From a virus, in IMG/VR virus record IMGVR_UViG_3300025594_000048, positions 1 to 28,105 of that record: a stretch of DNA of 28,105 bases; one strand, written 5' to 3'. The notes beneath the pieces were generated by a model, which did no database searches, was not told the DNA's origin, and worked only from the letters and a program-made list of their open reading frames with translations. How positions within the stretch are numbered: position 1 is the stretch's first letter; every line of letters starts with the position of its first letter. A program made the position numbers and the translations under genes. Shown piece by piece: positions 722 through 27,604 of the stretch.

Positions 722-1249
722 TTAGTCACTCTTGGGTTCTAAGTAGTCGATGTCTTTACCCGCAATCTTCAGCAGGTCTTCGTCACTCATGCGCTCGAGC
801 TGCTTAGTGCCGTTGATGTTGATATTTACTTGGGTAGCGTTCTCAGGTGCAGCCAAACCGTGCAGCTTGACCAACGAATCGGTGGTGTTCTTCATTTCAG
901 TGGCGTTTGCCGAGGAGTTATAGGCTTCCATATACATCATGTGAGCGTGCTGATTGCTAAATCGCACCTCTTCACGCATCTCCTGGCGGAAATACTCAAT
1001 CGCTTTTTGTACTTCGGGGACTTTTGCAGCAGCGTAAGCCGCCTGGGGGCAGGAGTAACCAGCACCACGTCCAGCAGCTGCAGTCGTCATCCCTGAAGAG
1101 ATGAGCGAGACCAGCTTTTCTTGCTGCATGGTTAATGATCCACGGCTTATGCCCATGTACGGCATATGCGATTGGAATTCGGTGTGGTCACTGACTATGT
1201 CAGTGGATGGTTGTTCCGTCTGAAGCTGTTGATCCATAGAACTCGTCAT
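722..1249 (-). CDS. terS: Small terminase subunit (TerS-like)
   Basis: The product is 175 aa. Residues 38-75 read as a helix-turn-helix of the kind that opens phage small terminases (LTMQQEKLVSLIS, then GMTTAAAGRGAGYS). A long helical stretch at 76-130 suits the oligomerisation core. The tail at 140-175 is acidic and could dock the ATPase. TerS rings recognise the packaging site and load the large subunit. The length is normal for the family. The start is uncertain: 1249 or 1237 both give weak ribosome sites, and the 5' end overlaps the upstream gene by 50 bases in another frame. The basic mini-proteins follow at once. The assignment rests on pattern and context and was not tested by a search. 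Confidence 0.65.
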   Translation of the reverse strand: MTSSMDQQLQTEQPSTDIVSDHTEFQSHMPYMGISRGSLTMQQEKLVSLISSGMTTAAAGRGAGYSCPQAAYAAAKVPEVQKAIEYFRQEMREEVRFSNQHAHMMYMEAYNSSANATEMKNTTDSLVKLHGLAAPENATQVNININGTKQLERMSDEDLLKIAGKDIDYLEPKSD

Positions 1250-1986: not shown

Positions 1987-2183
1987 TATGGAGAATTTTT
2001 CAGAAAAAAAATATGAAAAGTACGTTTATATCTCGCATGGACTATCTCCCCCCCGCGGATATTCAGGCACCCCAACCCCGAATCGTAGTCATGGAACCTT
2101 GATCTCGATTCACGCTCAGGGACCCCCCACGTTTTCTCCTACGTCGAAACCGGTCGGATTCAATGTTGAAACTAGCTCATAAG

Positions 2184-2200
2184 AGTTAGTACTACTAAGA
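2184..2200 (+). promoter_or_regulatory. Degenerate operator copy before first rightward gene
   Basis: The inner core TTAG-TACTA-CTAA (2186-2198) is intact but the outer bases differ. It ends ten bases before the ATG at 2210. TTGAAA (2166-2171) is a possible -35. The 248-bp gap 1962-2209 also holds the leftward operator and one CGGTCGG element (2151). I see nothing else in it. Confidence 0.45.
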
Positions 2201-2209
2201 GAGATCATC

Positions 2210-2425
2210 ATGAACTTCAAACCTAAAGCACTACTCGCAGCCAGCATGTACCTCAACAAGACTAACCTGACTCAGGCAGTCGCATTCGCTAAGGATAACT
2301 GGAGAGAGATTGCCATAGTCGTTGCAGGCGCATACGTAATGGAAGACCTAGACACTGCAGCCGAGATGGCTGAAACAAGTGCCGTTGTCGACGTACTCAC
2401 CGCTGCTTCAGAAGGTGTCATCTAA
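2210..2425 (+). CDS. Small early protein of unknown function, 71 aa
   Basis: First gene of the rightward early operon. Residues 30-43 (REIAIVVAGAYVM) are hydrophobic but short for a membrane helix; the rest is helical and acidic towards the C terminus. A purine-rich GAGAG stretch lies just upstream. The stop overlaps the next ATG (TAATG), so translation is probably coupled. No family recognised. Confidence 0.6.
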   Translation: MNFKPKALLAASMYLNKTNLTQAVAFAKDNWREIAIVVAGAYVMEDLDTAAEMAETSAVVDVLTAASEGVI

Positions 2426-2610
2426 TGAGATATCTAGCCGCTTACGACGAATATACCCGTGAACCACGGTCCACGAAGTTTAACCGCGCTCCACGGCGCA
2501 CGAACCGCGCTCAAGAGCTTGCGGACCGCTACTCGGAGTACACGCGCATGGGCTTCTCTGCTGACGAATCACGTCGCATGGCCTATCACCACCACTCAAA
2601 CAAGCTATAA
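2425..2610 (+). CDS. Small basic protein, 61 aa
   Basis: Rich in Arg, Tyr and Glu (for example RAPRRTNRAQELADRYSEY), probably helical in its second half. It overlaps the upstream stop by one base and is followed at once by an AAGGAG site for the next gene. Function unknown. The block CGCGCTCCACGG inside it (from 2485) recurs at 2769. Confidence 0.55.
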   Translation: MRYLAAYDEYTREPRSTKFNRAPRRTNRAQELADRYSEYTRMGFSADESRRMAYHHHSNKL

Positions 2611-2620
2611 GGAGTACATC

Positions 2621-2755
2621 ATGTTTATAGGATCTTTATTGATACTCACCATCTTCGTCATTCTTGGCGGAGGTGTGAGCCTTGCCCACCTATTAGACAC
2701 GTCAGGCATCATGGATCGTGAACAACGTTCGGAGAAAACCCATGAAAAAGACTGA
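2621..2755 (+). CDS. Small single-span membrane protein, 44 aa
   Basis: ATG at 2621 is preceded by AAGGAG six bases upstream, which is why it is preferred to the longer frame starting at 2459. Residues 2-24 form a clear transmembrane helix (IGSLLILTIFVILGGG), followed by a charged tail. Phage early operons often carry such membrane peptides, but no function is shown here. Confidence 0.6.
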   Translation: MFIGSLLILTIFVILGGGVSLAHLLDTSGIMDREQRSEKTHEKD

Positions 2756-2891
2756 ACGGATCATGCATCGCGCTCCACGGTCCGCGGCTCGTGCCTCGCG
2801 CGCCCGCACAGCAATGTGTAGCAGGAACGAAAAATGTGTAGCAGGTAGAAACCTCGTATCTGCTACACACAATAGTGTTATATATCAATAA
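2742..2891 (+). CDS. Possible 49-aa basic ORF running into the repeat field
   Basis: ATG at 2742 has a GGAG site seven bases upstream, and the frame overlaps the end of the membrane-protein gene. The first 25 residues are Arg/Ala-rich. The second half is encoded by the TGTGTAGCAGG repeats, which argues for DNA function over coding function. It may be translated, or it may be chance. Confidence 0.35.
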   Translation: MKKTERIMHRAPRSAARASRARTAMCSRNEKCVAGRNLVSATHNSVIYQ

Positions 2892-3118
2892 CTTAACCCA
2901 ATGTGTAGCAGATGTAGCAGATGTAGCACCTTTTTCTGAGTTCATATTAGGACTTCTTTAAAACACTGTTTTATTTTCTAAAAAGAACTTCAACTTGAAA
3001 ACACCTGCTACACATGCTACACAGCTTGAAACCCCTATGTTTACTCACTTCTTGCCTGTTTTTACCTGCTACACATCTTGGTACAAGCTGCTACAAACAC
3101 CCTCGTACCTGCTACACA
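2815..3118. repeat. Iteron-like repeat field, candidate replication origin
   Basis: About eleven copies of a 9-12 bp unit, consensus TGTGTAGCAGGT, lie in 304 bp. Forward copies start at 2815, 2835, 2902, 2911 and 2920 (the last three overlap in a 9-bp rhythm). Reverse copies (ACCTGCTACACA) start near 2859, 3003, 3015, 3064, 3088 and 3107. A stretch at 2929-3002 of about 27% G+C lies between the forward and reverse clusters. Repeats flanking an easily melted segment are typical of iteron origins, and the phage has an SF3-type helicase, a class that commonly binds such repeats. A regulator-binding or partition site is the alternative. The gene-free stretch 2892-3325 is explained by this field and the promoter DNA after it. 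Confidence 0.6.
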
Positions 3119-3208
3119 CCCAGAATATAGAACTAATCGTGGACCGTATTTCACGAATATCGAGCACTATGTCCACTAACCGTGGAAATCGACTCACGCT
3201 ACGCGTTC

Positions 3209-3230
3209 ATCGGTCGGTTTCCTCTATAAG
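3209..3230 (+). promoter_or_regulatory. Repeated promoter-like element ATCGGTCGGTT plus TATAAG
   Basis: ATCGGTCGGTT (3209-3219) is followed by TATAAG (3225-3230). The same word lies at 3657-3667 with a TATA at the same distance, and a CCGGTCGGATT variant at 2150-2160. All three precede rightward genes. Confidence 0.45.
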
Positions 3231-3233
3231 CAC

Positions 3234-3281
3234 GCAATAAAGTGTGCTGTAAGTACATAACTAAGTGCAATAAAGTGTGCT
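3234..3281 (+). repeat. 15-bp direct repeat inside an inverted repeat
   Basis: GCAATAAAGTGTGCT occurs at 3234-3248 and 3267-3281, a 33-bp period or about three helical turns. The second copy lies within TAACTAAG (3258-3265) and CTTAGTTA (3280-3287), a perfect 8-bp inverted repeat. This is probably regulator binding upstream of 3326. Confidence 0.55.
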
Positions 3282-3288
3282 TAGTTAT

Positions 3289-3305
3289 TATTAGCTGTAG
3301 TACTA
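3289..3305 (+). promoter_or_regulatory. Degenerate operator before 3326
   Basis: TATTAG-CTGTA-GTACTA keeps one perfect half. TACTAT (3301-3306) falls where the -10 box lies in the better copies. Confidence 0.4.
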
Positions 3306-3325
3306 TTCCGTAGGAGGAATTAGCC

Positions 3326-3523
3326 ATGAACAATTTACAATCTGTAAATCTGAACGTAGATCACTGGGACATGTTAGCGCCCGAGCGTCACGTAACAGCA
3401 TTGGATTACACGAACTACGATCTTGTATCGTTGTGTGATGATATTAGTAAAACTAATAGTGATGACGGTATGCCGTGGAACTACAACGAGCTAGCATCAT
3501 CTGGCAAGTGGGGTGTGTCATGA
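3326..3523 (+). CDS. Small acidic early protein, 65 aa
   Basis: Opened by TAGGAGGA about seven bases before the ATG, the strongest ribosome site in this part. The product is acidic and Asn/Asp-rich with several Trp and Tyr; no family recognised. It carries a perfect operator copy within its coding sequence (3442-3458). Its stop overlaps the next start (ATGA). Confidence 0.65.
   Translation: MNNLQSVNLNVDHWDMLAPERHVTALDYTNYDLVSLCDDISKTNSDDGMPWNYNELASSGKWGVS
3442..3458 (+). promoter_or_regulatory. Perfect operator palindrome inside a coding gene
   Basis: TATTAG-TAAAA-CTAATA. TTGTGT (3431-3436) and TAATAG (3454-3459) fit the same -35/17/-10 layout, which would place a promoter about 60 bp before the 34-aa membrane gene. 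Confidence 0.55.
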
Positions 3524-3624
3524 GCAATGTACTCGAAGCAATAGCAGTTGCAGCCTTAACAATACTGTTAGTACCAGCAGCTGCAGTTCTTTTAACAATT
3601 CTCACTGTGTTAGTAGCGCAGTGA
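3520..3624 (+). CDS. Hydrophobic micro-protein, 34 aa
   Basis: ATG at 3520 overlaps the previous stop (ATGA). Residues 6-33 are almost all Ala, Leu, Val, Ile and Thr, a single membrane helix filling nearly the whole product. Function unknown; holin-like or regulatory membrane peptides are possible but unsupported. Confidence 0.55.
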   Translation: MSNVLEAIAVAALTILLVPAAAVLLTILTVLVAQ

Positions 3625-3637
3625 GACAAAACACCAT

Positions 3638-3660
3638 CGATATACCTTACAGGTATATCG
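3638..3660. promoter_or_regulatory. Second class of operator-like inverted repeat
   Basis: CGATATACC and GGTATATCG are perfect 9-bp arms around TTACA. No T-run follows, so it is not a terminator. It merges with the ATCGGTCGGTT element (3657-3667) ahead of the 231-aa gene. The arms differ from the TATTAG family but the 5-bp spacer is the same. Confidence 0.55.
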
Positions 3661-3676
3661 GTCGGTTACTTTTATA
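3657..3676 (+). promoter_or_regulatory. Repeated promoter-like element before the 231-aa gene
   Basis: ATCGGTCGGTT with TATAGA 14 bases after the CGG start. CGGTCGG begins exactly 59 bases before the ATG at 3718, the same distance as the copy at 2151 from the ATG at 2210. Confidence 0.45.
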
Positions 3677-3717
3677 GATTAAGCATTTAGTTTAATCACT
3701 ATGTCCTGGAGGACGCT

Positions 3718-4413
3718 ATGAACAAGAACGAATCTTTTATCGACCAAATCATCACTAACATGGCCGAGAAGTCTAACCGAAACGGCACTATTGCCAAACT
3801 TGTAGAAGCAGCAGATCACGAGGTTGTAGCCAACCGCATCGCAATCGTCTGGGATGACCTAGGCAGAGCACGACGTGTAGCAAAGACCCAAGCAGTACGC
3901 AACGGCCAGCAAATGCCAGAGCTTACAGAGAAGCCTGAGCACATGTTGTCACTCATCCAGCAAGCTATGAACAACTGCTGTTGGGCAGCACGAACCGTGA
4001 TCAATGCAGGTAAATCAAAAGACCTAGCCAATGGTCTCGACTTCTCGCAGTCCATTGCCGACCAAGCAGGTAACATTGCTTCTTCGCGAATCGTAGACGT
4101 CGAATCAGCACTCATGAACGACTTCAGCGTGCTCAACGAACTGCACAGTTGGTTGTGTAGCGAGATGAACTACATGGCAGACCTCGACCCATTGTTCTTG
4201 TATGCAGAGAAACAAGAGATCGAAGAAGGCATCTGGGAGCACACTCACATGTGCATGGACATCAACGATGTTCTACCCATCCTCGATGAGAAAGTAATCG
4301 AGTTAGCAGAGCAAGGTGATACTAACATCACTAAGTTCGCGTCAACTCACGTCTTTGGAGCTAAGCAAGAAGCTAAGCCCAGCAAAAAAGCAGCTAAGAA
4401 GAAAGCTGCTTAA
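3718..4413 (+). CDS. Early protein of unknown function with lysine-rich tail, 231 aa
   Basis: Preceded by GGAGG and followed by a strong terminator, so it forms its own transcription unit. Residues 1-215 look helical, with several Trp and Cys (NNCCWAARTV near 96). Residues 216-231 are Lys/Ala-rich (KPSKKAAKKKAA), like bacterial histone H1-like tails. No family recognised. A dedicated promoter region, a good ribosome site and a terminator suggest strong early expression. The tail may bind DNA or RNA, or act as a general charge anchor; this is inference. Confidence 0.7.
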   Translation: MNKNESFIDQIITNMAEKSNRNGTIAKLVEAADHEVVANRIAIVWDDLGRARRVAKTQAVRNGQQMPELTEKPEHMLSLIQQAMNNCCWAARTVINAGKSKDLANGLDFSQSIADQAGNIASSRIVDVESALMNDFSVLNELHSWLCSEMNYMADLDPLFLYAEKQEIEEGIWEHTHMCMDINDVLPILDEKVIELAEQGDTNITKFASTHVFGAKQEAKPSKKAAKKKAA

Positions 4414-9202: not shown

Positions 9203-9394
9203 ATGAAAACAAAAGAGTATTTTGCAGAGCTAGAAGGTCTAGAACTAGACAACTTCCACCCTGAATTCCACAGCTACGTCGCCACATATATCAGAGCGCG
9301 ATCACCACAGCTGTATACCGAAGTAGCTTCTCACTTCAAAAACGTTGAGGGTGAAATCTACGCCCACCTGCAAGCTAACAGCGATCAGTTCTGA
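9203..9394 (+). CDS. Small protein before the polymerase, 63 aa
   Basis: AGGAGG seven bases before ATG. Acidic and aromatic; no family recognised. Its stop TGA overlaps the polymerase ATG, so it may set polymerase translation by coupling, since the polymerase has no strong ribosome site of its own. Confidence 0.65.
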   Translation: MKTKEYFAELEGLELDNFHPEFHSYVATYIRARSPQLYTEVASHFKNVEGEIYAHLQANSDQF

Positions 9395-11196
9395 TGCTCG
9401 TTACTCTCGACTTCGAGACATACTACGCACCAAAGTACAGTCTAACCACACTTACAACGATGGACTACGTCAGGCACGAGAACTTCAAAGTGCAAGGCGT
9501 AGGCATCAAAATCGATGATGGCGAGACTGAGTACTACGATGAGCACGAAGCGGAATCCGCGATACGTGAGCTTGATTGGAGTGACGTGACCCTTATCTGT
9601 CACAACACCCCGTTTGATGGCTATATATTAACCCGCTATTACGAAGTTATACCTCAGTATTACATAGATACAGCTGCAATGGCTCGCGCGCTTGCCCCTG
9701 GGCAATCAGCGTCTCTTAAAGACACAGCTATTCGCACCTTCCCAGACGACGAGTCAATGCGCAAAGGTGACGAGCTCGCTAGCACCAAAGGTATCTACGA
9801 CCTAGATCCAGAGCTCTCCAAGATCCTGGGTACATACTGCATACAAGACGTAGACCTTACATACGCTCTGTATATGCAGATGCATACCCAAATGCCTAAA
9901 AGCGAAATGGATCTCATCGACATGACCTGTCGAATGTTCTGCGAACCAAAGTTGATCGTGGACCTCGAACTTCTATACAAGTTTCGCGATGAAACGATCG
10001 CTGCTTCATTAGCAATAGTAGAAGCAAGCGGCGTTGACCCCAAGGTACTCAGCTCTAACCAACAGTTTGCAGCACACATAGAAAGCATGGGTCTAATACC
10101 ACCAACTAAGATTAGCCCTACGACAGGCAAGGCCATCCCTGCCCTCGGTAAAAGCGACAAGGCATTTACCCAGATGCAGAAGATGTACCCTGAGCATCAG
10201 CACATATGGGACGCGCGCTTAGCAGTAAAAAGCCGCATCAACCAGACAAAAGCGCAACGCTTCATCGACGCGACACATACAGACGGGACAATATCTGCAC
10301 CCTTGCGTTACTACGCAGCACACACTGGCCGCTTTGGCGGTACAGAAAAGCTCAACATGCAGAACATGCCACGTAACTCACCGCTACGTTTAGCGCTAAC
10401 CGCACCTGCAGAGCACCTCATATTCGTAGCGGATCTATCCGCAATCGAAGCCCGCGTCTTAGCATGGTTAGCAGACGAAACAGAATTGTTACAGCTGTTT
10501 AGAGACGGCAAAGACGTATACAGCGATCTAGCTGGCTCGATATATAAGCGGGTAATCAATAAGAAAGACGACCCCGACGAACGCTTCGTCGGCAAAGTTG
10601 CGCAGCTCGGCCTAGGTTTCGGCATGGGCGCAAACCGCTTTCAGGACACACTTGAAACTGGCGCAATGGGCCCACCCATGAAGTTCGCTATCGACAAAGC
10701 GTACAACGTTATTAATACATACCGCTCTACTTATCCCGGCATCCCGATGCTTTGGAAAAAGCTAGAGCTTAAATTAGCAAACACCATAAACCCTAACTAC
10801 ATAGAAGAGTGGCATGGCCTTACATTCAAAGATAAAAAGATCTACTTACCTAACGGGTTGGCTCTGCATTACAGCAACCTTCGGTACGAACAAGGGCAGT
10901 TAGTTTATGACCAGCGCAACACTATCAAAACCTGGGGCGGTAGCCTCGCAGAGAACGTAGTTCAAGCGCTAGCAAGACTAATTGTTACCGACGCAATGCT
11001 CCGCATACAAGCGGACCAAACACTAGATGCCGATGTCGTACTGACTGTACATGATGAAATAATTTTAATTAGTAAGGCTAATAACCCAGATGCTACAATG
11101 TCTAAGTTAATCGCACATATGTGCGTACCTCCAGCCTGGGCTCCTGACATTCCGTTAGACGCCGAAGGCGGATACGATACGAGCTATAGCAAGTAA
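9394..11196 (+). CDS. polA: Family A DNA polymerase with 3'-5' exonuclease, 600 aa
   Basis: Replicative phage polymerase. The exonuclease domain (1-190) keeps its metal residues: D6 and E8 in LDFETYY, CHNTPFD near 71, and YCIQDVDLTYALY near 149. The polymerase domain has motif A (VADLSAIEARV, D347), motif B (GKVAQLGLGFGMG near 401) and motif C (TVHDE, D554). There is no 5'-3' nuclease domain, as is usual for phage family A enzymes. The Tyr/Phe position of motif B appears as Gly-Phe-Gly. The ATG overlaps the previous stop. csrA follows after three bases. All catalytic sites are present, so the enzyme should be active. Confidence 0.95.
   Translation: MLVTLDFETYYAPKYSLTTLTTMDYVRHENFKVQGVGIKIDDGETEYYDEHEAESAIRELDWSDVTLICHNTPFDGYILTRYYEVIPQYYIDTAAMARALAPGQSASLKDTAIRTFPDDESMRKGDELASTKGIYDLDPELSKILGTYCIQDVDLTYALYMQMHTQMPKSEMDLIDMTCRMFCEPKLIVDLELLYKFRDETIAASLAIVEASGVDPKVLSSNQQFAAHIESMGLIPPTKISPTTGKAIPALGKSDKAFTQMQKMYPEHQHIWDARLAVKSRINQTKAQRFIDATHTDGTISAPLRYYAAHTGRFGGTEKLNMQNMPRNSPLRLALTAPAEHLIFVADLSAIEARVLAWLADETELLQLFRDGKDVYSDLAGSIYKRVINKKDDPDERFVGKVAQLGLGFGMGANRFQDTLETGAMGPPMKFAIDKAYNVINTYRSTYPGIPMLWKKLELKLANTINPNYIEEWHGLTFKDKKIYLPNGLALHYSNLRYEQGQLVYDQRNTIKTWGGSLAENVVQALARLIVTDAMLRIQADQTLDADVVLTVHDEIILISKANNPDATMSKLIAHMCVPPAWAPDIPLDAEGGYDTSYSK
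11067..11083 (+). promoter_or_regulatory. Near-perfect operator copy inside polA, upstream of csrA
   Basis: AATTAG-TAAGG-CTAATA, one mismatch to the consensus, 117 bases before the csrA start. The spacer TAAGG is the same as in the 16377 copy. No convincing -35. It could be a roadblock or internal site, or chance within coding DNA. Confidence 0.4.
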
Positions 11197-11199
11197 CTT

Positions 11200-11385
11200 A
11201 TGCCACGACTAGTACTTACAAGAAAAGTAGACGAACAAGTTGTCATCCACGATGACAACGGCGTTATCGCGAGAGTTAAAATCTCCAAGGTTGACAGGAA
11301 TCAAGTCCGAATTACATTCGAGGCAGAAAATACGATCAGGATTGATCGACAGGAAGTATACGAGAGAAACGCTCCTACTAAATAG
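11200..11385 (+). CDS. csrA: CsrA/RsmA-type RNA-binding regulator, phage-encoded, 61 aa
   Basis: Aligns over its length to CsrA: LVLTRKVDEQVVI at the front (LTR(K/R)V motif), NQVRI in the middle and DRQEVYERN at the end, where the Arg matches the RNA-contact Arg44 of Escherichia coli CsrA. CsrA dimers bind GGA in mRNA leaders and change translation or stability. Differences include one extra N-terminal residue, VDE in place of VGE, and DRNQVR in place of GNQVR. It lies three bases behind the polymerase and before the primase, in the replication operon. Likely targets are host mRNAs or phage leaders; the primase leader just downstream has tandem GGA (11418-11423). Confidence 0.9.
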   Translation: MPRLVLTRKVDEQVVIHDDNGVIARVKISKVDRNQVRITFEAENTIRIDRQEVYERNAPTK

Positions 11386-11435: not shown

Positions 11436-13934
11436 ATGCAAACTACTTTTTTAGAAGCCGCTAACGGACAGCGACTCAGTAAGCGCCACTGTCCCACAAA
11501 CGGTTTTACCCCATACCCACACGTTAAGAGCGTGACATCGCACGAACACCAAGTGCCGCTCGACGAGACTGGTTTAGCCATGCTCGAGCGATTGATCCGT
11601 GACCACGCCGACTTAGGGCATTGCTTATTAAAAGGTAACTTAAAGCGCCCTATCGAGAACGAATCTCGAGCAGGTAAAACTGACAGAATTGGTTACTCAA
11701 ACCTACTTGTATTAGATATAGACGGCATCACACTGCCAGGGCACACAAACCCTAAGAGTTACGATGCAAAAATTGTCGCTACTCTAGCTAAGACAGTCAT
11801 GCGTGAGTTACCTCCCGCAGTACAAGACTGTGCATTTATTGCACAAGCATCAGCAAGCCTAGGACTTAAAGGCGACAAAGTATCCTTACATATATTTATA
11901 TTGTTAGCTCAAGCAATGCCTGCTAAAGCAGTCAAGCTGTGGCTACAAGCCAGTAATTTTGAGTCAGAGCTGTTCTCATCCCAGCTCGAGCTGTCATCTA
12001 ACGGCCACTCACTCAAGTACCCACTTGATATAAGTGTCGCTGACAACTCAAAACTTATCTTCATTGCTCCTCCTACCTTTGAAGACGGAACCCACAATCC
12101 GTTCAGTACACCCGCTGAGCGGATTGTGGGTGTTTCCGGTATATCGGAGACTCTTGACCTCGCTAAATTGATGAACGACATCAGCCCCGAGGTAGTCCAC
12201 CAAAAGAGTAATGAGCATAAAAACAAGCTACGAGTCTTACGCGGTTTTAATGCCAAGAAAGAACGACTCACTATTGCTAATATAAACAACAAGTCAGAAG
12301 AGATACTGACTAACCCCGACAGAATGTCCATCACAGTACATGACGATTCCCACGGACAGTTTATACATTGCAACGTTAACGGCGGCGACAGCAACGCTTA
12401 CTACTTCAAGCTCGAAGACCCGACGTACATGTTCAACTTTAAAGGTGAACCAATCTGGTCTATCGAGCAAGCTGACCCCGACTTCTATAAGACGCTCTTC
12501 GATGTCTATCAAGAAGAGATGGCAAAAGAAGGTCGAGCTAGCTTTCCAGTAGTCCTCCGCGACTACTACACAGATACATATTACAACGGTGTATTCGACC
12601 CGAACCTTAACCAGTTCAGCGGAGAATTCCCGTTAACGCCTTGTGCAGCTGCTAGCATAGAAGGCTTTATGCGATCACATGGTCGTAGCAAGCCTGACTT
12701 CATACCTGACGCAAAGGTTATCTTCGACCCTGTGTCTAATGCTGATGCAGTTAACCTAAGCAATGTGCCCTACCACATCAACATGTTCCGTAAGACCGAG
12801 TACATGCTGTCGAGCATTGAGCACGAACCACTAAGCATGGGCGACGCAAAGCGAATCGCGGACTCTTGCCCGCTAATCTACAAGCTAATGTCGCATATCC
12901 TCGGCGGTAAGAACCTCGAGCTCGAGTACTTCACCAACTGGTTAGCGTACATCTTCCAGACTAAGCGTAAAGCAGGAACCGCGTGGGTACTGCAAGGTGT
13001 CCCTGGCACAGGGAAAGGTATCTTCTACTCTAAAGTACTCAGACCGCTGTTTGGCACGGAGCATGTACCTATGCGCGCGCTTCAAAACATCGAAGAGCAG
13101 TTCAACCTCTACATGAGACAAGCATTGTTCCTCGTTGTTGACGAGTTCCACATGGCGTCAGCGAACTCAGGCACAGTCAAAGTAGCTGATAAGCTCAAAA
13201 ACCAAATATCAGAAAACACGATGACCATTCGTGCGATGCGCAGTAACCAAGCAGAAGTGCCGAACTACACAAACTTCATCTTTCTCACCAACAGAATGGA
13301 TGCCGTAAAAATCGAGGAGGGAGACAGGCGATATAATATCGCTCCGAGACAAGAGCAAAAGCTCGAGCACGTATACCCAGAAGTTGTAGATGGCATTGAT
13401 GACATCGAAAAAGAACTGCATAAGTTCGCTGCGTTACTTAAGAGTTTCAAAGTCAACAAGCAGCTAGTTCGCACACCAATATCAAACAGTGCCAAAGCGC
13501 AGATGGAACAAGTCACCATGTCTGTAATGGAAGAATTCTTCGCTGCTGTACGACACGGTAACCTTAGCTTCTTCATGGACATACTCGACATCGAGCTAAC
13601 CAACGTACTTCAGGGCGCAGAGATTACCACCGCACAACGCCTCGTAAAGCAGTGGATCGTAGAATCTCAGTGGCCGCATTCCGTAATACCGTTAGAGCAC
13701 TTGCGCACTGTGTACGGAGTCTTAACCGACGACCGTGTATCACAGCGTGAGTTTCAAAAGAAAGCAGAACGCTGTGGAATTACTAAACAACAAAAACGCG
13801 AACACAATGCAACGCGCGGATCAGCACCGTTGCGAGGCGTAGTAACAACGTGGAAGTTAGACAAAGAACAGCTTAACGAAGTTACTGAAAAATACTTCGA
13901 CGACAAGGACCGCAAGTTACTTGCTGTGGCATAG
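11436..13934 (+). CDS. AEP primase / SF3 helicase fusion, 832 aa
   Basis: Primer synthesis and unwinding at the fork in one chain. The front third has primase-polymerase (AEP) motifs: LVLDIDG with D94 and D96, then a Ser-x-His motif (S150, H152 in VSLHIFIL). The helicase lies at about 450-680: Walker A GVPGTGKG (from residue 521), Walker B LFLVVDEFH (near 568), the sensor Asn in FIFLTN (near 612) and EEGDRRYNI as the likely arginine finger. SF3 proteins often bind origin repeats, which fits the field at 2815-3118. ATG 11436 has AGGAGGAG 11 bases upstream, slightly long. A regulated promoter (11385) lies in front. Confidence 0.85.
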   Translation: MQTTFLEAANGQRLSKRHCPTNGFTPYPHVKSVTSHEHQVPLDETGLAMLERLIRDHADLGHCLLKGNLKRPIENESRAGKTDRIGYSNLLVLDIDGITLPGHTNPKSYDAKIVATLAKTVMRELPPAVQDCAFIAQASASLGLKGDKVSLHIFILLAQAMPAKAVKLWLQASNFESELFSSQLELSSNGHSLKYPLDISVADNSKLIFIAPPTFEDGTHNPFSTPAERIVGVSGISETLDLAKLMNDISPEVVHQKSNEHKNKLRVLRGFNAKKERLTIANINNKSEEILTNPDRMSITVHDDSHGQFIHCNVNGGDSNAYYFKLEDPTYMFNFKGEPIWSIEQADPDFYKTLFDVYQEEMAKEGRASFPVVLRDYYTDTYYNGVFDPNLNQFSGEFPLTPCAAASIEGFMRSHGRSKPDFIPDAKVIFDPVSNADAVNLSNVPYHINMFRKTEYMLSSIEHEPLSMGDAKRIADSCPLIYKLMSHILGGKNLELEYFTNWLAYIFQTKRKAGTAWVLQGVPGTGKGIFYSKVLRPLFGTEHVPMRALQNIEEQFNLYMRQALFLVVDEFHMASANSGTVKVADKLKNQISENTMTIRAMRSNQAEVPNYTNFIFLTNRMDAVKIEEGDRRYNIAPRQEQKLEHVYPEVVDGIDDIEKELHKFAALLKSFKVNKQLVRTPISNSAKAQMEQVTMSVMEEFFAAVRHGNLSFFMDILDIELTNVLQGAEITTAQRLVKQWIVESQWPHSVIPLEHLRTVYGVLTDDRVSQREFQKKAERCGITKQQKREHNATRGSAPLRGVVTTWKLDKEQLNEVTEKYFDDKDRKLLAVA
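12090..12131. repeat. Perfect 12-bp inverted repeat inside primase gene
   Basis: ACCCACAATCCG (12090-12101) and CGGATTGTGGGT (12120-12131) around an 18-base loop. It falls in the linker between the primase and helicase parts. The mRNA would form a stable hairpin. Confidence 0.8.
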
Positions 13935-13973: not shown

Positions 13974-14723
13974 ATGATTAAACTTACCCAAGATACAAGA
14001 GCCGACGATGCTGTCGATTTCGAAAAACCAAAGGAGCTAGGCGATGTCAGAGCTTGGAGTTATTCAGCGCTTAAAGTCTACGAAGAATGCGCTTACCGCA
14101 CGTATGTCAGTCGCGTTAAAGGCGTTAAAGAGCCTAGCGGCCCAGCCGCTGATCGCGGCACGCAAATACACCAATACGCTGAAGACTATGTTAACGGCAC
14201 AATGGGAGAGATGGCTGACGAGCTATTCAAGTTTAAAGATGAATTTGAAGCGTTACGCCAAGACTTCATCGACGCGAAAGTAGAACTTGAAGGCGACTGG
14301 GGCTTCGACATCGATTGGGGCGTAGTAGGCTGGATGGAAAAAGCCACCTGGGCACGTATCAAACTAGATGCACTAGTACAGGAAGACGATACATCCGCAC
14401 GCGTTATCGATTACAAGACTGGCAAAAAGTGGGGCAATGAAATCACCCACGGGCAGCAAGGTCTGCTCTACGCCATCGGCACATTCTTCCGCTACCCTCA
14501 CCTACAGTTCGTACAGACAGAGTTCTGGTATCTCGACAAAGGTGAAACCACTAAAAAACAATATACGCGCGAGCAAGCCATGCTATTCGCACCAGGCTTC
14601 CATCGCCGCGCAGTAAAAATGACTACTGAAAAAGATTTTGCTCCAACACCCAGCAAAGATGCATGTCGATGGTGCTCGTTCCGTAAAGGTGACGACCCAG
14701 AATGTACATGGGGTGTGAGCTAA
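13974..14723 (+). CDS. Cas4/RecB-like PD-(D/E)XK nuclease with iron-sulphur cysteines, 249 aa
   Basis: The active site shows as KLDALV followed by VIDYKTGK (D146, K148), the PD-(D/E)XK core. Cysteines C39, C231, C234 and C244 (CRWC...C at the end) match the 4Fe-4S pattern of Cas4/AddB-type exonucleases. Phages use such enzymes for recombination or end processing with a helicase and a single-strand binding protein. There is no Cas1 or CRISPR array, so this is not a CRISPR locus. A terminator follows, so the gene closes a transcription unit started at 13937. Confidence 0.85.
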   Translation: MIKLTQDTRADDAVDFEKPKELGDVRAWSYSALKVYEECAYRTYVSRVKGVKEPSGPAADRGTQIHQYAEDYVNGTMGEMADELFKFKDEFEALRQDFIDAKVELEGDWGFDIDWGVVGWMEKATWARIKLDALVQEDDTSARVIDYKTGKKWGNEITHGQQGLLYAIGTFFRYPHLQFVQTEFWYLDKGETTKKQYTREQAMLFAPGFHRRAVKMTTEKDFAPTPSKDACRWCSFRKGDDPECTWGVS

Positions 14724-14756
14724 CCTACTTACCACGCCTCCCCCGTAGTGAGCCTT

Positions 14757-14790
14757 GCCCTGTTGATCACACATGACAGGGCTTTTTATT
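14757..14790 (+). terminator. Rho-independent terminator after nuclease gene
   Basis: GCCCTGT (14757-14763) pairs with ACAGGGC (14776-14782) and is followed by TTTTTATT. Confidence 0.85.
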
Positions 14791-14839
14791 CCCGATCGGA
14801 ATCCAAATGATCCTCATGAACCATGTAGAGAGAACCCCA

Positions 14840-14992
14840 ATGAAAAAGCTATTAACAAAATTCTACTACGCAATCGCCGTAGTAGCCCTATTAACTGTCT
14901 TCGCTAACATGATTGCTCTTAGCCTTTACGTTTTTGCGCTCATCGCAATCGTAAGCGGTGTTGCGTATTTCCACTTGAGGACTAAACCATGA
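14840..14992 (+). CDS. Two-span membrane protein, 50 aa
   Basis: Start at 14840 (MKKLLTKFYY) is preferred over 14807 because a purine-rich GAGAGA lies upstream and the product begins with a typical charged end. Two hydrophobic helices (about 9-25 and 26-44). Stop overlaps the next start (ATGA). Role unknown. Confidence 0.6.
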   Translation: MKKLLTKFYYAIAVVALLTVFANMIALSLYVFALIAIVSGVAYFHLRTKP

Positions 14993-15279
14993 TAACAGCT
15001 GGATTAATATCTGCTGCAGGACTGCTATTCCTGTTGTTCAAGTTCGGTGTACGACGCGTCATAGCGTATGACATACCCCTAGATATTCTAACCACAAGCC
15101 TCCTCATGTTTATATTCGCCGGTACGTTCGGCGGCATGATGGCAGCTATGGTTGGGGGACTGGCTGTGTCTATAACGCTCTATGTCATGAAGTCTACGAT
15201 GACTCGTGAAGAGCTAAAGTTCGTTAAAACAAAAAACTTTCCGTACAGAAAGCTACTCTGGATTGAGGTAGAACCATGA
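14989..15279 (+). CDS. Membrane protein, 96 aa
   Basis: Hydrophobic segments at 2-18, 33-50 and 51-68 are followed by a charged tail (TREELKFVKTKNFPYRK). Coupled to both neighbours by ATGA overlaps. It forms a small membrane-protein pair with the 50-aa gene, perhaps altering the host envelope. No family recognised. Confidence 0.6.
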   Translation: MITAGLISAAGLLFLLFKFGVRRVIAYDIPLDILTTSLLMFIFAGTFGGMMAAMVGGLAVSITLYVMKSTMTREELKFVKTKNFPYRKLLWIEVEP

Positions 15280-16620: not shown

Positions 16621-17964
16621 ATGAATATGTATCCACCATTCAAACATCAAAAAGTTACAACCGACTTCATCAAAGCTAACCCACGATGCCTGATCACCTC
16701 TGATCCTGGCACAGGTAAGACACGCTCTGTCCTAGACGCGATCGTGGACCGTAAGTCACGAACCTTGGTCCTTGCACCGCTGTCCATCCTCGAAGCATCG
16801 TGGGGCGATGACATACTCAAGTTCACACCTGATCTCACGTACGCTGTTGCGTACGCCAAGAACCGTGAGAAAGCATTCGCCAGTGACGCAAAAGTAGTTA
16901 TCACCAATCACGACGCAGTCAAATGGATACTTAAAAATCTAAAAGTATTACGCGACTTTGACACGCTAGTTATTGACGAATTCACAGCGTTCAAAAATGC
17001 CAACAGTCAACGCAGTAAAGCCTGCCGCAAACTATCAGAGTTGTTTACCAACCGTATCGCAATGTCAGGTACACCAAACTCTAACGGCATCCTCGACCTC
17101 TGGCATCCAGCGTTAATCGTAGACGACGGTGAGCGGTTAGGACGTAGGTTCTACAGCTTCCGCGGTTCGGTGTGTACGCCTAGATTCAATGGCTTCGCTA
17201 ATGAGTGGGTCCAAAAAGACAACGCAGAAGAAACTGTTGCAGCTGCACTAAGTGATATCAACGTTCGGTACATGCTCGAAGAGTGTCTCGACATGCCTGC
17301 GCAAACAGTCAGCACGATGTACGTCACATTACCTAAGAAGATCATGGAGCAATACAAGACGCTCAGTGACGATTCAGTGTTATACACAGGTGAAACTACC
17401 ATCAACGCCCTGCACGCAGGTAGCAAAGTTAAGAAGTTGCTTCAGCTATGTACCGGCGCTGTGTATGACTCAGAAGGTACTGCTCAAAACATACACAAAG
17501 AACGTTACGAAGTTGTTATGCAGCTTGTAGCAGAACGCGCTCAATCACTCGTTGCGTTTAACTGGAAGCATGAGCAGCGATGCCTCGTTGAGCTAGCAGA
17601 CAAGATGGGTATCAAGCACGCCACCATCGATGGATCAGTTGCTGCACACAAGCGCAAAGAAATTGTCGATCGCTTACAAGCAGGTGAGCTTCAAGTTGTG
17701 TTCTGTCACCCGCAGTCAGCAGGTCATGGTCTCACGATGACCACTGCCAAGACTGTTATATGGGCGTCACCAACCTACAACGCAGAACATTACCAACAGT
17801 TCAACCGACGCATTTATAGAGCAGGCCAGACTGAAAAGACTGAGGTCATCCAGATAGCCGCGCGAGACACCTGGGAAACAGATGTCTACGAGAAGTTGCA
17901 AGGCAAAGTAGAACGAATGGATGAGCTTTTAGGAATACTAAATCAACTTAGACACGCAGCATAA
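16621..17964 (+). CDS. SNF2-family DNA helicase/translocase, 447 aa
   Basis: Superfamily 2 ATPase: Walker A DPGTGKT (K33), DEAx-type VIDEFTAF (D119, E120), motif III MSGTPNS, and motif VI QFNRRIYRAGQ near the end, the SNF2 signature. Full length for phage members of this group. It probably remodels or unwinds DNA in replication or recombination together with the Cas4-like and VRR nucleases. The start is 16621 or 16627; an in-frame ATG at 16573 would lie in the promoter. AAAGAG is upstream. Eleven bases separate it from the next gene. Confidence 0.88.
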   Translation: MNMYPPFKHQKVTTDFIKANPRCLITSDPGTGKTRSVLDAIVDRKSRTLVLAPLSILEASWGDDILKFTPDLTYAVAYAKNREKAFASDAKVVITNHDAVKWILKNLKVLRDFDTLVIDEFTAFKNANSQRSKACRKLSELFTNRIAMSGTPNSNGILDLWHPALIVDDGERLGRRFYSFRGSVCTPRFNGFANEWVQKDNAEETVAAALSDINVRYMLEECLDMPAQTVSTMYVTLPKKIMEQYKTLSDDSVLYTGETTINALHAGSKVKKLLQLCTGAVYDSEGTAQNIHKERYEVVMQLVAERAQSLVAFNWKHEQRCLVELADKMGIKHATIDGSVAAHKRKEIVDRLQAGELQVVFCHPQSAGHGLTMTTAKTVIWASPTYNAEHYQQFNRRIYRAGQTEKTEVIQIAARDTWETDVYEKLQGKVERMDELLGILNQLRHAA

Positions 17965-19560: not shown

Positions 19561-20133
19561 ATGAAAAAGGAAGACGTATTACCTTTGTCCGTTCGCAACC
19601 TGCGTAGGATTTGGGAAGCGAAGAAGCTAGAAATGCAATTCACCCAGACCGGAGCTGCAAAAGAGCTGGACTGGTCCCAAGGCGCTATATCGCACTACCT
19701 GAACAATATTACCGAAATGGGTCCGTCGGCAATTGTAAAGCTGGCTAATTTTCTAGATGTCGACCCGACTGAGATTGACCCCTCAATAGTTTCAAAGCTC
19801 CCCCATGTACGAAAGATCAAAGTCACAAAAAAAGCTAGCGATCTAACATCGCCTACTAAGTCGCACATATATGACCGCGACGACATCGCCCACATATACG
19901 TAGCTATAGACAAAGAGATACTTATCCAAGGCACGGACCGCGTAATACCTTCGCAGCACGACGGGTTTAAAGGTGTGCTAAAACTCTGTAAGCAATCTAA
20001 ATATACACATAACCATCTAGTAGCAGTGCGCCTAAAGACAGAAACTCATCTACGCGTCTACTTAAAAACAGACTCTCCCCCAGCCGCAAAAGTCCACACA
20101 TTGTGGGCGGTCATGTCAATCACTTATTTGTAG
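19561..20133 (+). CDS. Cro/CI-type repressor, 190 aa
   Basis: Residues 8-65 are an XRE-type helix-turn-helix (LRRIWEAKKLEMQFTQ, GAAKELDWSQGAISHYLNN), the DNA-binding fold of phage repressors. A linker with KVTKKAS follows. The C-terminal 90 residues are strand-rich and end LWAVMSITYL, similar in outline to S24 repressors, but I cannot find the catalytic Ser and Lys, so it may not self-cleave in the SOS response. It is the only CI-like protein in the window and the best candidate to bind the TATTAG-N5-CTAATA sites. It shares the operon end with the excisionase-like gene. Confidence 0.82.
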   Translation: MKKEDVLPLSVRNLRRIWEAKKLEMQFTQTGAAKELDWSQGAISHYLNNITEMGPSAIVKLANFLDVDPTEIDPSIVSKLPHVRKIKVTKKASDLTSPTKSHIYDRDDIAHIYVAIDKEILIQGTDRVIPSQHDGFKGVLKLCKQSKYTHNHLVAVRLKTETHLRVYLKTDSPPAAKVHTLWAVMSITYL

Positions 20134-20313: not shown

Positions 20314-20526
20314 ATGATGAACTCAATCCTTTGTACCCAATACGGCCCTTTCATGGATCTTGAAGAACTAGCCACACTTTTCAGGATCAAAAAAGAATCA
20401 GTGTATCAGCAGATTTATAATGGCAAACTAGATATACCGCACGTAAAGCGCGGCAAGAAGTACCTGTTCCCTACCCACGAAGTTGCAATTTATCTTGACG
20501 GTAAGCTAGATGAGACTCGGGTCTAA
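20314..20526 (+). CDS. Excisionase-like HTH protein, 70 aa
   Basis: MerR/excisionase-type winged helix: FMDLEELATLFRIKKESVYQQIYNGKLDIPHVKRGKKYLFPTHEVAIYL is the HTH_17 pattern, with the recognition helix at about 26-40. Such proteins direct the integrase to excise or act as regulators. It converges on the integrase gene, overlapping by four bases. ATG at 20314 or 20317; weak ribosome site. Confidence 0.72.
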   Translation: MMNSILCTQYGPFMDLEELATLFRIKKESVYQQIYNGKLDIPHVKRGKKYLFPTHEVAIYLDGKLDETRV

Positions 20527-21530
20527 TAACCTCCAAAGTCTTCAGCTCTAAGATTCACGTAACGAGATAACTGGTCAAGGCTGCTATGTCCGCTTATTAA
20601 GCGAACCTGCGCAACACTCATACCGCTCTCGAACAACCGTGAAATTGCTTCATGGCGCAAGTCATGGAAATGCATGTCGTATATTCCAACTTTTTTACGT
20701 AGCTTAGCGAATGCGTCAGAAATGGACGCTGCTCGTTTCACCTCAAACAGTACGTCAGCCTTGCCAAGTACATTCTGATGGCGTACGAGCGCCTCTCTCA
20801 CGCCCTTTAATAGGGGTATTATAGCCTTCTTCTTACCCCCTTCAGCATGCTTGTTTTTACGCCATAGGGTAATAAGCCCTTTGTCAAAGTCGATCATGCT
20901 CCATTTAAGAGCGTGTATTTCGCCCTGGCGCATGCCTGACTCAATAGCAATGTCTATCGCAGCAGCAAGATAACGAGAACGTTGCGGCCCTACTGCACCC
21001 ATGAGCAATTCATACTCCCCTTTCTCCAGGCGACGGTCGCGTTCTTCACTACCCATTATGATTTTTTTCTTTTTAAGCTCAGTAATTGCTATATCGATAG
21101 CATCAACTTCAGTGCGAATACGACTGTGCGTTAGGGCTTGCTTAAAATAGTAGATCTGATACTGCAACGTAGACGCTGCAACTTCTTTGCGCCGGTCTGC
21201 TGCGAAGTTAAGAATATCATCAGCGGTTAGGTCATGAATCGACTGCCCCTGAAAATGTCGTTTGAGCATATTGAGCTGCCCAAGTTTAGGGCCGCACACT
21301 TCAAGCCCAAACCTTGTGTAAGAATATATAAGCTGATCGATAATGTGGTCAATGATATGTGAGTCTTGAGCGCGGGTATCGATCCACGAACCGTTGTTCA
21401 TGCTCGCCTCTATGCCGACCGCCCAGGCTGCTGCTGAAGCTTTAGAAGTAAAGGATTTTGTTTGGGTTGGAAATTTTTTACGCCTGATCTGGACGTGATA
21501 CTGCCCCCCTCTTTTTCGTATCGTTGCCAT
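20523..21530 (-). CDS. int: Tyrosine integrase, 335 aa
   Basis: Site-specific recombinase that inserts the phage at attP. The N terminus (MATIRKRGGQYHVQIRRKKFPTQTKSF) is an arm-binding domain, followed by a core-binding helical domain and the catalytic domain with R201 (SGMRQGEIH), a Lys near the KHAEGGKKK loop, H289 and R292 (HDLRH), H315 (GHSS) and Y324. All catalytic residues are present. The start at 21530 has AGGAGG upstream; an extended TTG-start frame from 21581 is rejected since it would include the terminator tail. attP lies 93 bases upstream. Confidence 0.93.
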   Translation of the reverse strand: MATIRKRGGQYHVQIRRKKFPTQTKSFTSKASAAAWAVGIEASMNNGSWIDTRAQDSHIIDHIIDQLIYSYTRFGLEVCGPKLGQLNMLKRHFQGQSIHDLTADDILNFAADRRKEVAASTLQYQIYYFKQALTHSRIRTEVDAIDIAITELKKKKIIMGSEERDRRLEKGEYELLMGAVGPQRSRYLAAAIDIAIESGMRQGEIHALKWSMIDFDKGLITLWRKNKHAEGGKKKAIIPLLKGVREALVRHQNVLGKADVLFEVKRAASISDAFAKLRKKVGIYDMHFHDLRHEAISRLFESGMSVAQVRLISGHSSLDQLSRYVNLRAEDFGGY

Positions 21531-21579
21531 AACTCCCTCCTGGGTGTGCCAAAATTGTGCCTGAGAGTCGCAATGTATC

Positions 21580-21613
21580 AAAAAAGCCCCTACAGCTCAA
21601 TGGCTGTAGGGGC
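21580..21613 (-). terminator. Rho-independent terminator between late genes and int
   Basis: An 11-bp perfect stem, GCCCCTACAGC and GCTGTAGGGGC, with a 6-base loop is followed on the minus strand by six T. It would stop leftward late transcription before int, both in the free and integrated state. Confidence 0.88.
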
Positions 21614-21710: not shown

Positions 21711-21772
21711 TTATCTTGGCGTTGGCTAACCTATTGATAACTCTATATATTTTAGTTTAGGTTATTTCTTAT

Positions 21773-25907: not shown

Positions 25908-27604
25908 GATTGACGCACCTCGTCCATGCTCTGCGCTAAACAAAACTCATTAATGTCAGTACCCTCGACTTGGATCTCCCACTGTTGAGCGACCACAGCT
26001 GGCATACGCATTATCGGTTCGCGCAAAGTACCGTCACTGATGTTGCTTGGTACAGTGGTAGCCTGCGTATATGTTGCTCCTGGTTTACTTAGTACATAAT
26101 GAGCAACAAGTACCCCGTCCCCCCAGACTTTTACAGTAACTGGGTAGACATCTGCGTCTACAGAGACCCAACCCATAGAAATAGGTGAGGTGCTTATAAA
26201 CTTTTTACTCTTAAACTTCAGTGTGTTTTTACCGCTAGCACCCTGATACTTTTTAATCTTGTTACCGACGATGACATATAGCTGGCCATCTTTAGGGTTA
26301 CGGTAGCCGCCTCGAATATCGGCTGCCACGGTCAGTGTAGAGAGTGCGGCCTCACCGCCTCGCGGATCATAGACCCAACCCCCACCCGCGTGAAATGCAA
26401 CGTATGTACCTTCGTGACGAAAAGCGCGAATCGTTGTAGGATTGAAGTCCGCGTTCCATTGCTTAACCGAAACCTGTGACTTAGTTACTACTTGTCCCTG
26501 CGAGCTTTGCAAAGAACATAAACCGTCTGGCCCTGCATAGAGTACATAATCACCCATGTCTACTACACTGCGTGCGTTCACACACGCTTGCGCTAGATCA
26601 ACGCGGATCGCGGTCATGGCTGACGGTTCGGTGCCCGTGATAAAATAAGGCTGTCCATCGGTCAACGCTGCAACACCATTAGCCGTTGAAGCAATAGCAA
26701 CGATGTCTTCTTCAGTCGTGATCCTGTATTGGATTGGCCAGGCGTGTGGTAAAAATGGTTCAGATAAGCAGAACCGTTTGCCTGTAAAACCTGCCATCGT
26801 GCCTTGAGATAAAGGTATTAAACCTTTCAAAGGGCCATCGGGATACAAGCTACTATCGTCTGGCGGACCAATCCACGTAGCGCTGGGTATAATCTCCCCC
26901 AAGTTAGCAGAAGACGTAGTGTCTGTGTACGTCGTCGAGTTGTAGGAGATCTGTGTGAGGAACTGAAACTGCGTATTCGTAGAACCAGTATTGCTGCGGT
27001 AGATCCGCTTTAACGAGCCAGCACCGAAGTTATAGTTGCCTGAAGGATTGTTGGACGTAGGTAGTGTTAGCGCAACAGTTTCCGTAGTAGTGATGTCTAG
27101 AATTCCAGACGCCGCACTCGGGGGGCCTTCTTCGCCCATAGCTGTAACCAAAGTATAAACGTACGAAACGCTATTCGGGGTCTCACCTTCCGCAACATCG
27201 CCGGACTTCTCAGCAGTAAGACCTGCCGATGGAGCGGGAACACCGAGCCGGTAAGAGTTAACCGGATACCCTGAACTACCACTCACGAGCGTAGCCACTG
27301 TACCGACGCGAGGGTAATCATCACCCGTAAAGTATAGACGGTCAGTAGTATCGCCAGGGATCGGACCAGGGACTACGGATACATCTTCATTAGACCACTC
27401 TAGCCATGAAGTATCGCGATAGTAGTATATTGACCGACGCCCAGTATTTTGCAGGGTGTACGCGTCTACGTCTGCGTTAGTCGCGGCCAGTCGACCAGAT
27501 TCGAAGTCTATGTTCTCCGCTATCTGGCCAAACTTTTCGTTAAGCAGACGAGCGGTGACCGCTGGAGCGATACCGCTGAACCTGTCCCTCTTAAAATAAA
27601 CCAT
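25904..27604 (-). CDS. Large virion protein, tail-associated, 566 aa
   Basis: GAGGT four bases before ATG 27604. The front (MVYFKRDRFSGIAPAVTARLLNEKFGQIAENIDFESGRLAATN) is a pattern common in podovirus-type virion proteins. The body is beta-rich, with Tyr/Gly repeats such as KRIYRSNTGSTNTQFQFLT and DGLCSLQSSQGQVV that suggest a beta-propeller or multi-blade fold. It lies just before the fibre gene, so it probably anchors or caps the tail. No enzyme motif seen. Confidence 0.65.
   Translation of the reverse strand: MVYFKRDRFSGIAPAVTARLLNEKFGQIAENIDFESGRLAATNADVDAYTLQNTGRRSIYYYRDTSWLEWSNEDVSVVPGPIPGDTTDRLYFTGDDYPRVGTVATLVSGSSGYPVNSYRLGVPAPSAGLTAEKSGDVAEGETPNSVSYVYTLVTAMGEEGPPSAASGILDITTTETVALTLPTSNNPSGNYNFGAGSLKRIYRSNTGSTNTQFQFLTQISYNSTTYTDTTSSANLGEIIPSATWIGPPDDSSLYPDGPLKGLIPLSQGTMAGFTGKRFCLSEPFLPHAWPIQYRITTEEDIVAIASTANGVAALTDGQPYFITGTEPSAMTAIRVDLAQACVNARSVVDMGDYVLYAGPDGLCSLQSSQGQVVTKSQVSVKQWNADFNPTTIRAFRHEGTYVAFHAGGGWVYDPRGGEAALSTLTVAADIRGGYRNPKDGQLYVIVGNKIKKYQGASGKNTLKFKSKKFISTSPISMGWVSVDADVYPVTVKVWGDGVLVAHYVLSKPGATYTQATTVPSNISDGTLREPIMRMPAVVAQQWEIQVEGTDINEFCLAQSMDEVRQS

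Follow-up and report, generated by a model that had tools for sequence, protein, structure and literature searches.

In SaPIs, the C-terminal domain of Rep acts on iterons, apparently as two hexamers (PMC7581432), and the origins of PICIs always contain an AT-rich region with one set of iterons on either side (PMC6092414). In P4, the C-terminal winged helix of the alpha protein binds the origin repeats (PMC4234260). For phages with DUF5906/NrS-1-type primase-helicases, no report of a mapped origin was found in the open-licence literature. The DNA analyzed here is a linear IMG/VR contig of 28,105 bases (this whole stretch is called the window) with a field of repeats at 2815-3118, which an earlier note had proposed as a candidate origin. 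Our results support this proposal by comparison, since the field is linked with a primase-helicase in at least 37 contigs and its geometry is near-constant. With a probability of roughly 0.8, the field is where DNA replication of this temperate phage starts.

Similar to the SaPI and PICI origins, the field has two iteron sets flanking an AT-rich region. However, the SaPI origin lies 3' of the initiator gene, whereas the gene for the proposed initiator here starts 8.3 kb downstream of the field (Table 1). SaPIs and PICIs are satellites, while the window derives from a full temperate phage, with tail genes in the window and terminase, portal, and capsid-like genes in relatives. In addition, the 9-bp tandem steps, phased arms, and IHF consensus sites of the field were not found reported for SaPI origins. 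The likeness to P4 is in the single primase-helicase, for which a C-terminal winged helix like that of P4 alpha is predicted here, but P4 alpha has a Toprim primase and the protein of the window is AEP-like; moreover, one cluster and no second crr-like element was found here, and the repeats differ. The field would work like the SaPI/PICI and P4 origins but is a member of neither class, because it is not beside its proposed initiator gene and involves no satellite, no Toprim primase, and no second cluster.

Table 1. Features of the repeat field and of the genes discussed, with positions in the window.
Feature	Position	Strand	Remark
TerS-like small terminase	722-1249	-	
Outer left iteron TGTGTAGCAGGA	2815-2826	+	one mismatch to TGTGTAGCAGGT
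Left iteron TGTGTAGCAGGT	2835-2846	+	exact
Reversed left-arm iteron TGTGTAGCAGAT	2858-2869	-	one mismatch
Exact IHF consensus site TATCAATAACTTA (WATCAANNNNTTR)	2883-2895	+	lies between the inner and the distal left iterons
Inner left tandem array site 1, TGTGTAGCAGAT	2902-2913	+	one mismatch
Inner left tandem array site 2, TGTAGCAGA	2913-2921	+	9-bp step
Inner left tandem array site 3, TGTAGCACC	2922-2930	+	9-bp step
AT-rich core, presumed unwinding element	2931-3002		76% AT
Inner right tandem array site 1	3003-3014	-	exact 12-mer
Inner right tandem array site 2, TGTGTAGCATGT	3012-3023	-	9-bp step; one mismatch
Distal right iteron	3064-3075	-	exact; ~6 helical turns from inner right site
Weak, degenerate distal right site TGTACCAAG	3077-3085	-	
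Distal right iteron TGTAGCAGC	3087-3095	-	
Outermost right iteron	3107-3118	-	exact; ~10 helical turns from inner right site
PolA	9394-11196		
832-aa primase-helicase, DUF5906/VapE-like SF3 helicase	11436-13934	+	proposed initiator
C-terminal winged helix codons (residues 727-805)	13614-13850	+	predicted
CI-like HTH_3 repressor	19561-20133		
Integrase	20523-21581		

The window carries the gene set of a temperate tailed phage, including an integrase, an HTH_3 repressor, PolA, the primase-helicase, a RecB-like nuclease, an SNF2 helicase, and tail genes. Left of the field, the minus strand carries the TerS-like gene and a gene for an endonuclease VII-like protein; still further left, relatives have their terminase, portal, and capsid-like genes. 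The leftward and rightward genes meet at 2076-2209, 0.6 kb from the field, and the rightward early genes start at 2210, so the field lies just right of this divergent junction; its closeness to the junction had been pointed out before. It had also been described as gene-poor, and this agrees with our result that the relatives contain no convincing homologue of any ORF in 2756-3325; the ORF at 2995-3240 matches only L131 and L132, both with the same repeats as the window. The GC-skew profile, proposed earlier as a check, gave no support, as the skew is monotonic across the field with no turn there, and the AT skew follows gene direction only. A host search in 84,980 genomes returned one MAG contig with a 47% relative, which is probably viral. 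Additionally, an exact 15-bp direct repeat, GCAATAAAGTGTGCT, was observed in two copies spaced by 33 bp at 3234-3281 upstream of the small gene at 3326 and is a possible operator, and a CsrA-like regulator is encoded at 11200-11385 between PolA and the primase-helicase, as in most relatives.

The repeat unit of the field is a 9-bp core, TGTAGCAGG. In a record-wide pattern search, the 12-mer TGTGTAGCAGGT was found in four exact copies and in four copies with one mismatch (Table 1); beyond these eight, there was no match with at most one mismatch anywhere in the 28,105-base record, and the control pattern, TGTGTAGCAGGT read backwards, had zero matches in it. The TGTAGCA core occurs 11 times in 2817-3116, with four stray copies elsewhere in the record. 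This count, which matches the approximately eleven copies claimed in the earlier note, is the highest for any 7-mer (both strands) per 310 bp and falls in the field, while in 60 dinucleotide shuffles of the window the highest 7-mer count per 310 bp averaged 3.8 and did not rise above 5. The order of the cores, ++-+++-----, is mostly forward on the left and reverse on the right, as had been stated, with one left-arm site reversed (2858-2869). The sites next to the core are spaced exactly 9 bp apart, at 2904, 2913, and 2922 on the left and at two sites on the right. The segment between the arms is AT-rich as claimed, but its length is 72 bp and not 74 bp; it contains TTTATTTTCTAAAAAGAACTTCAACT, which recurs in close relatives. 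DNA similarity searches of the field gave only chance matches against phages and zero matches against E. coli genomes.

Such repeats might instead form an operator field, at which the CI-like repressor or another transcription regulator would bind cooperatively and silence the early operon. The phage is temperate, with an integrase and an HTH_3 repressor, and the field precedes the rightward early genes, both of which would fit this explanation. However, the 12-mer matches lie at one locus and at no other promoter of the window, unlike the sites of a regulator with several target promoters, and a search of 2000-3720 found no sigma-70-like promoter. An operator also needs no fixed 81-bp inner gap, AT-rich core, or 9-bp tandem steps.

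Helicase relatives were fetched from viral contigs and their whole records were read. Nearly all relatives with enough DNA upstream of the gene have a repeat cluster, and the same SF3-type primase-helicase and such a cluster occur together in 37 contigs, some of them near-identical. Each record has one such cluster of direct and inverted repeats in the inward layout, usually 7.5-14 kb upstream of the helicase gene, with leftward terminase genes on one side and rightward early genes on the other. The layout is alike between phages, while the repeat differs in all copies of the cluster. The repeat of the window is shared by G003, G010, and G011; the others include TGTGACGGG (G001), TGTGCCAGC (G004), TGTACCA (G005, G025), TGTGCCAC (G006), TGTGCAGG (G007 and the L194 group), TGTGTCAG (G008, G012, G035), TGTACACGG (G015), TGTGTAC (L129, L137), TGTGACA (L214, G040), TGAGACAG (G034), TGTTCCA (G022), and TGTGCACC (G026). 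The search for the same repeats in phages with a related helicase, suggested by the earlier note, recovered the layout, but mostly with another repeat sequence. In G010 the cluster is at the opposite contig end, which fits only a circularly permuted genome. No cluster was found in G021 or in G014 (a 47% relative), two records that extend far upstream of the helicase gene.

Several variants were observed among these records. In L170 (G016), at 1680-2000, and also in L134, the left arm of a hybrid origin carries TGTGTCAG and the right arm TGTGTGCAGGG; the switch in G016 falls in the AT-rich core, and the record is an assembly chimera or a natural recombinant. In G011, the helicase gene (30890-33387) is broken by stops and frame changes in a phage that is otherwise similar and has an intact-looking repeat cluster. 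In one subgroup, the right arm has a DnaA-box-like TGTGGATAA at its outer end (L194 at ~565-580, also L215 and L202). A second recurrent right-arm block, CTACAACCCGCATnnTTrCTnACTTTTT, lies between the inner and distal sites (L010 at ~1422-1455, L023 at ~150-180, and inverted in L084 at ~476-500).

The geometry of the clusters is near-constant. The start-to-start distance between the inner left and inner right sites has a median of 81 bp (range 77-94), with 19 of the 25 records falling within 80-82 bp. Tandem steps of 9 bp occur in the left arm of 20 of these records and in the right arm of 22. Distal sites recur at ~63, 74, 85, 95, and 105 bp in both arms, and many relatives have a reversed site ~63-67 bp from the inner-left site. 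The resultant length for the phasing of the distal sites is 0.58 at a period of 10.5 bp and ~0.62 at 10.75-11 bp, and outside the range of 9-12.75 bp it drops to 0.1-0.2; because the records are related, the Rayleigh p for this phasing is not a true probability. The exact IHF consensus WATCAANNNNTTR was found 22 times in 30 clusters, against 0.6 expected from base shuffles, mostly at fixed places, either to the left of the inner-left site at a distance of 39 or 52-53 bp or to the right of the inner-right site at 37-39 bp. In the window, it occurs only in the field and at 21727. This other site (21727-21739) is beside the integrase gene and may mark attP.

Iteron-like arrays can also serve partition or incompatibility, and the field might accordingly be a partition centromere or a nucleoid-type cis element with no role in replication start. 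However, the layout goes together with the helicase gene, the window encodes an integrase, and no ParA/ParB-like gene was recognized among its annotated proteins, so that we regard a partition site as highly improbable.

Comparable clusters were also found in cultured phages. The helicase of KPP25 (AB910393, L264) is 31% identical to that of the window over most of its length, and all eight exact TGTTACGA copies in the first 50 kb of this phage sit in a 676-bp gap at 26219-26894. The cluster at 26394-26826, in an early-gene gap, has tandem inward TGTTACGA pairs around a 108-bp core with 70% AT. In phiR18 (LC102729, L274), the gap at 14590-15266 contains TGTTACGA repeats and an AT-rich core in the same layout; its count of 7 is close to the shuffle maximum of 6, and the cluster is supported because the layout matches that of KPP25. 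These two Kochitakasuvirus phages resemble the window in their tandem inward repeats around an AT-rich core, but differ in a longer core (~108 bp), more mixed right-arm orientations, and the lack of an exact IHF consensus. Three near-identical GCAAACCCGCGTGGCACTAAGGCTCCAG units are present in their right arm. The Nitratiruptor phage NrS-1 (AB746912, L275) has 13 ACACTTT copies at 17065-17440, compared with a shuffle maximum of 6, and 9-bp tandem sites left of an 83-bp core with 77% AT. It shares the tandem inward repeats around an AT-rich core; however, the cluster is directly 3' of the polymerase gene, inside the annotated hypothetical ORF NRS1_29, whereas the field of the window is upstream of the helicase gene; among the phages compared, only NrS-1 has this SaPI-like position. 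Judged from its sequence, 17065-17440 is probably the origin of this phage, the polymerase structure of which is known. An origin suggestion for NrS-1 in the literature concerns two 8-nt priming sites, and no mention of the iterons was found in that paper (PMC7102993). Additionally, phiA008 has an exact IHF site in a gap with no clear iterons, and no repeat cluster was found in M6.

The 832-aa protein had been described as an SF3-type primase-helicase, and this is consistent with its DUF5906 and VapE-like matches, its match to the NrS-1 CTR (5e-26), and its poxvirus D5/E5 folds. In the alignment, the AEP-like motifs D94xD96 and S150xH152 are invariant or nearly so, and no match to a Toprim primase was found in the protein. 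NrS-1 provides the closest solved structure, both by sequence (6k9e, E 5e-26) and by fold (6k9c, E 6e-24), and the full-length model also matches PriRep1 (7pds, E 4e-9) and SaPI5 (7ola, E 6e-7). AlphaFold2 predicted a helix-strand-helix-helix-strand-wing-strand order for residues 727-804, which is that of a winged helix, with a pLDDT of 90. Foldseek gave only weak matches for this C-terminal domain (best E 0.09).

The proteins that track the repeats were analyzed by a sliding-window partial Mantel test in 21 dereplicated phages, comparing repeat distance with local helicase distance while controlling for whole-protein distance. The peak (partial r 0.47, max-T p 0.001) was at helicase residues 781-816 and covers the wing, as AlphaFold2 places the wing within 727-804. 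When the clade of the window was left out, the maximum shifted to residues 451-480; this clade alone (n = 7) gave no signal, a size at which the test has no power. Among 23 gene families, each present in at least 11 typed phages, the primase-helicase C-terminal wing was the best (partial r 0.48). A 96-aa probable membrane protein encoded ~1 kb downstream of the helicase came near (r 0.41), suggesting that linkage may contribute to the wing correlation. At equal overall identity, wing similarity was 0.69 for same-repeat pairs and 0.59 for different-repeat pairs. Q786 is common to the window, G003, G011, and G010, all with TGTGTAGCAGG, and R is nearly invariant elsewhere. A one-to-one residue code was considered and is not readable, as G017 (GGTGTAGCAGG) has R. 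The wing of the helicase is likely the reader of the repeats, but the partial Mantel test does not fully guard against an effect of common descent.

It might also be that the field is the origin but that another phage or host protein binds the iterons and recruits the helicase. The covariation, which is not conclusive, would leave room for such a protein, and so would the many small early genes that vary between the phages. However, none of the 23 families equals the helicase wing, and the related SaPI Rep and P4 alpha bind iterons themselves (PMC7581432, PMC4234260). A separate iteron binder seems unlikely to us.

Other candidate proteins did not follow the repeats. As trans factors, PolA (partial r -0.07), the integrase (-0.23), and the endonuclease showed no signal or could be set aside. 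Immunity repressors and their operators diversify together, a point that would favor an operator, but the recognition segment of the repressor, WSQGAISHYLN, is nearly unchanged across phages with quite different repeats, and its partial r is -0.07. Together with the single locus and the layout, this makes an operator decidedly unlikely. Packaging was considered as well, since the TerS-like and endonuclease VII-like genes adjoin the field and cos sites can contain repeated terminase sites; the field would then be a cos or pac site recognized by the small terminase encoded just to its left. TerS is, however, 86-92% identical among close relatives with wholly different repeats (88% with G001), and symmetric phased arms about an AT-rich core better match the assembly of an initiator, so a packaging site is very unlikely. 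As the recognition segment of the repressor is near-constant across repeat types and the terminase is similar in close relatives with different repeats, neither protein explains the repeat change.

Taking the field as an origin, we infer a mechanism modeled on SaPI Rep, the PICI origins, and P4 alpha. The primase-helicase would bind each 9-bp iteron via its C-terminal winged helix, and at the tandem 9-bp sites flanking the core its subunits would assemble into two head-to-head hexameric rings. The outer sites are phased by whole turns of the helix, and an IHF bend in the arm may fold the subunits bound there back onto the core. The rings would then melt the AT-rich core, and bidirectional, self-primed replication could start together with the phage PolA. 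The computation shows the repeats with their order, spacing, and phasing, the IHF consensus sites, the linkage with the helicase gene in relatives, and the statistical covariation with the wing, while binding, melting, bending by IHF, and firing of the field are inferred.

The kept spacing, together with a new sequence in every copy of the repeat, hints at the way in which such origins may alter their recognition code. We tentatively propose, as a possibility at somewhat less than even odds, that one near-fixed origin scaffold has had all of its 10-14 iterons rewritten in concert many times inside a single phage group, even among phages with 85-90% identical helicases, with a few wing residues setting the code and natural origin-incompatibility groups as the outcome. 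If so, the G016 hybrid could represent a true intermediate that works with two initiators or with a relaxed one. What is new here is the near-fixed scaffold with the proposed concerted rewriting of its repeats, the position-fixed IHF sites, the phasing, and the predicted origins of NrS-1, KPP25, and phiR18. Origins are thereby predicted for a large environmental group and for these three cultured phages, and the NrS-1 polymerase has already been purified and crystallized. The position-fixed IHF sites and the helical phasing lead to a concrete assembly model. The phages also provide a natural set in which iterons and initiators form some dozen matched types while the geometry stays near-constant, and thus a joint change in the specificity of an initiator and its sites would be directly testable by domain swaps.
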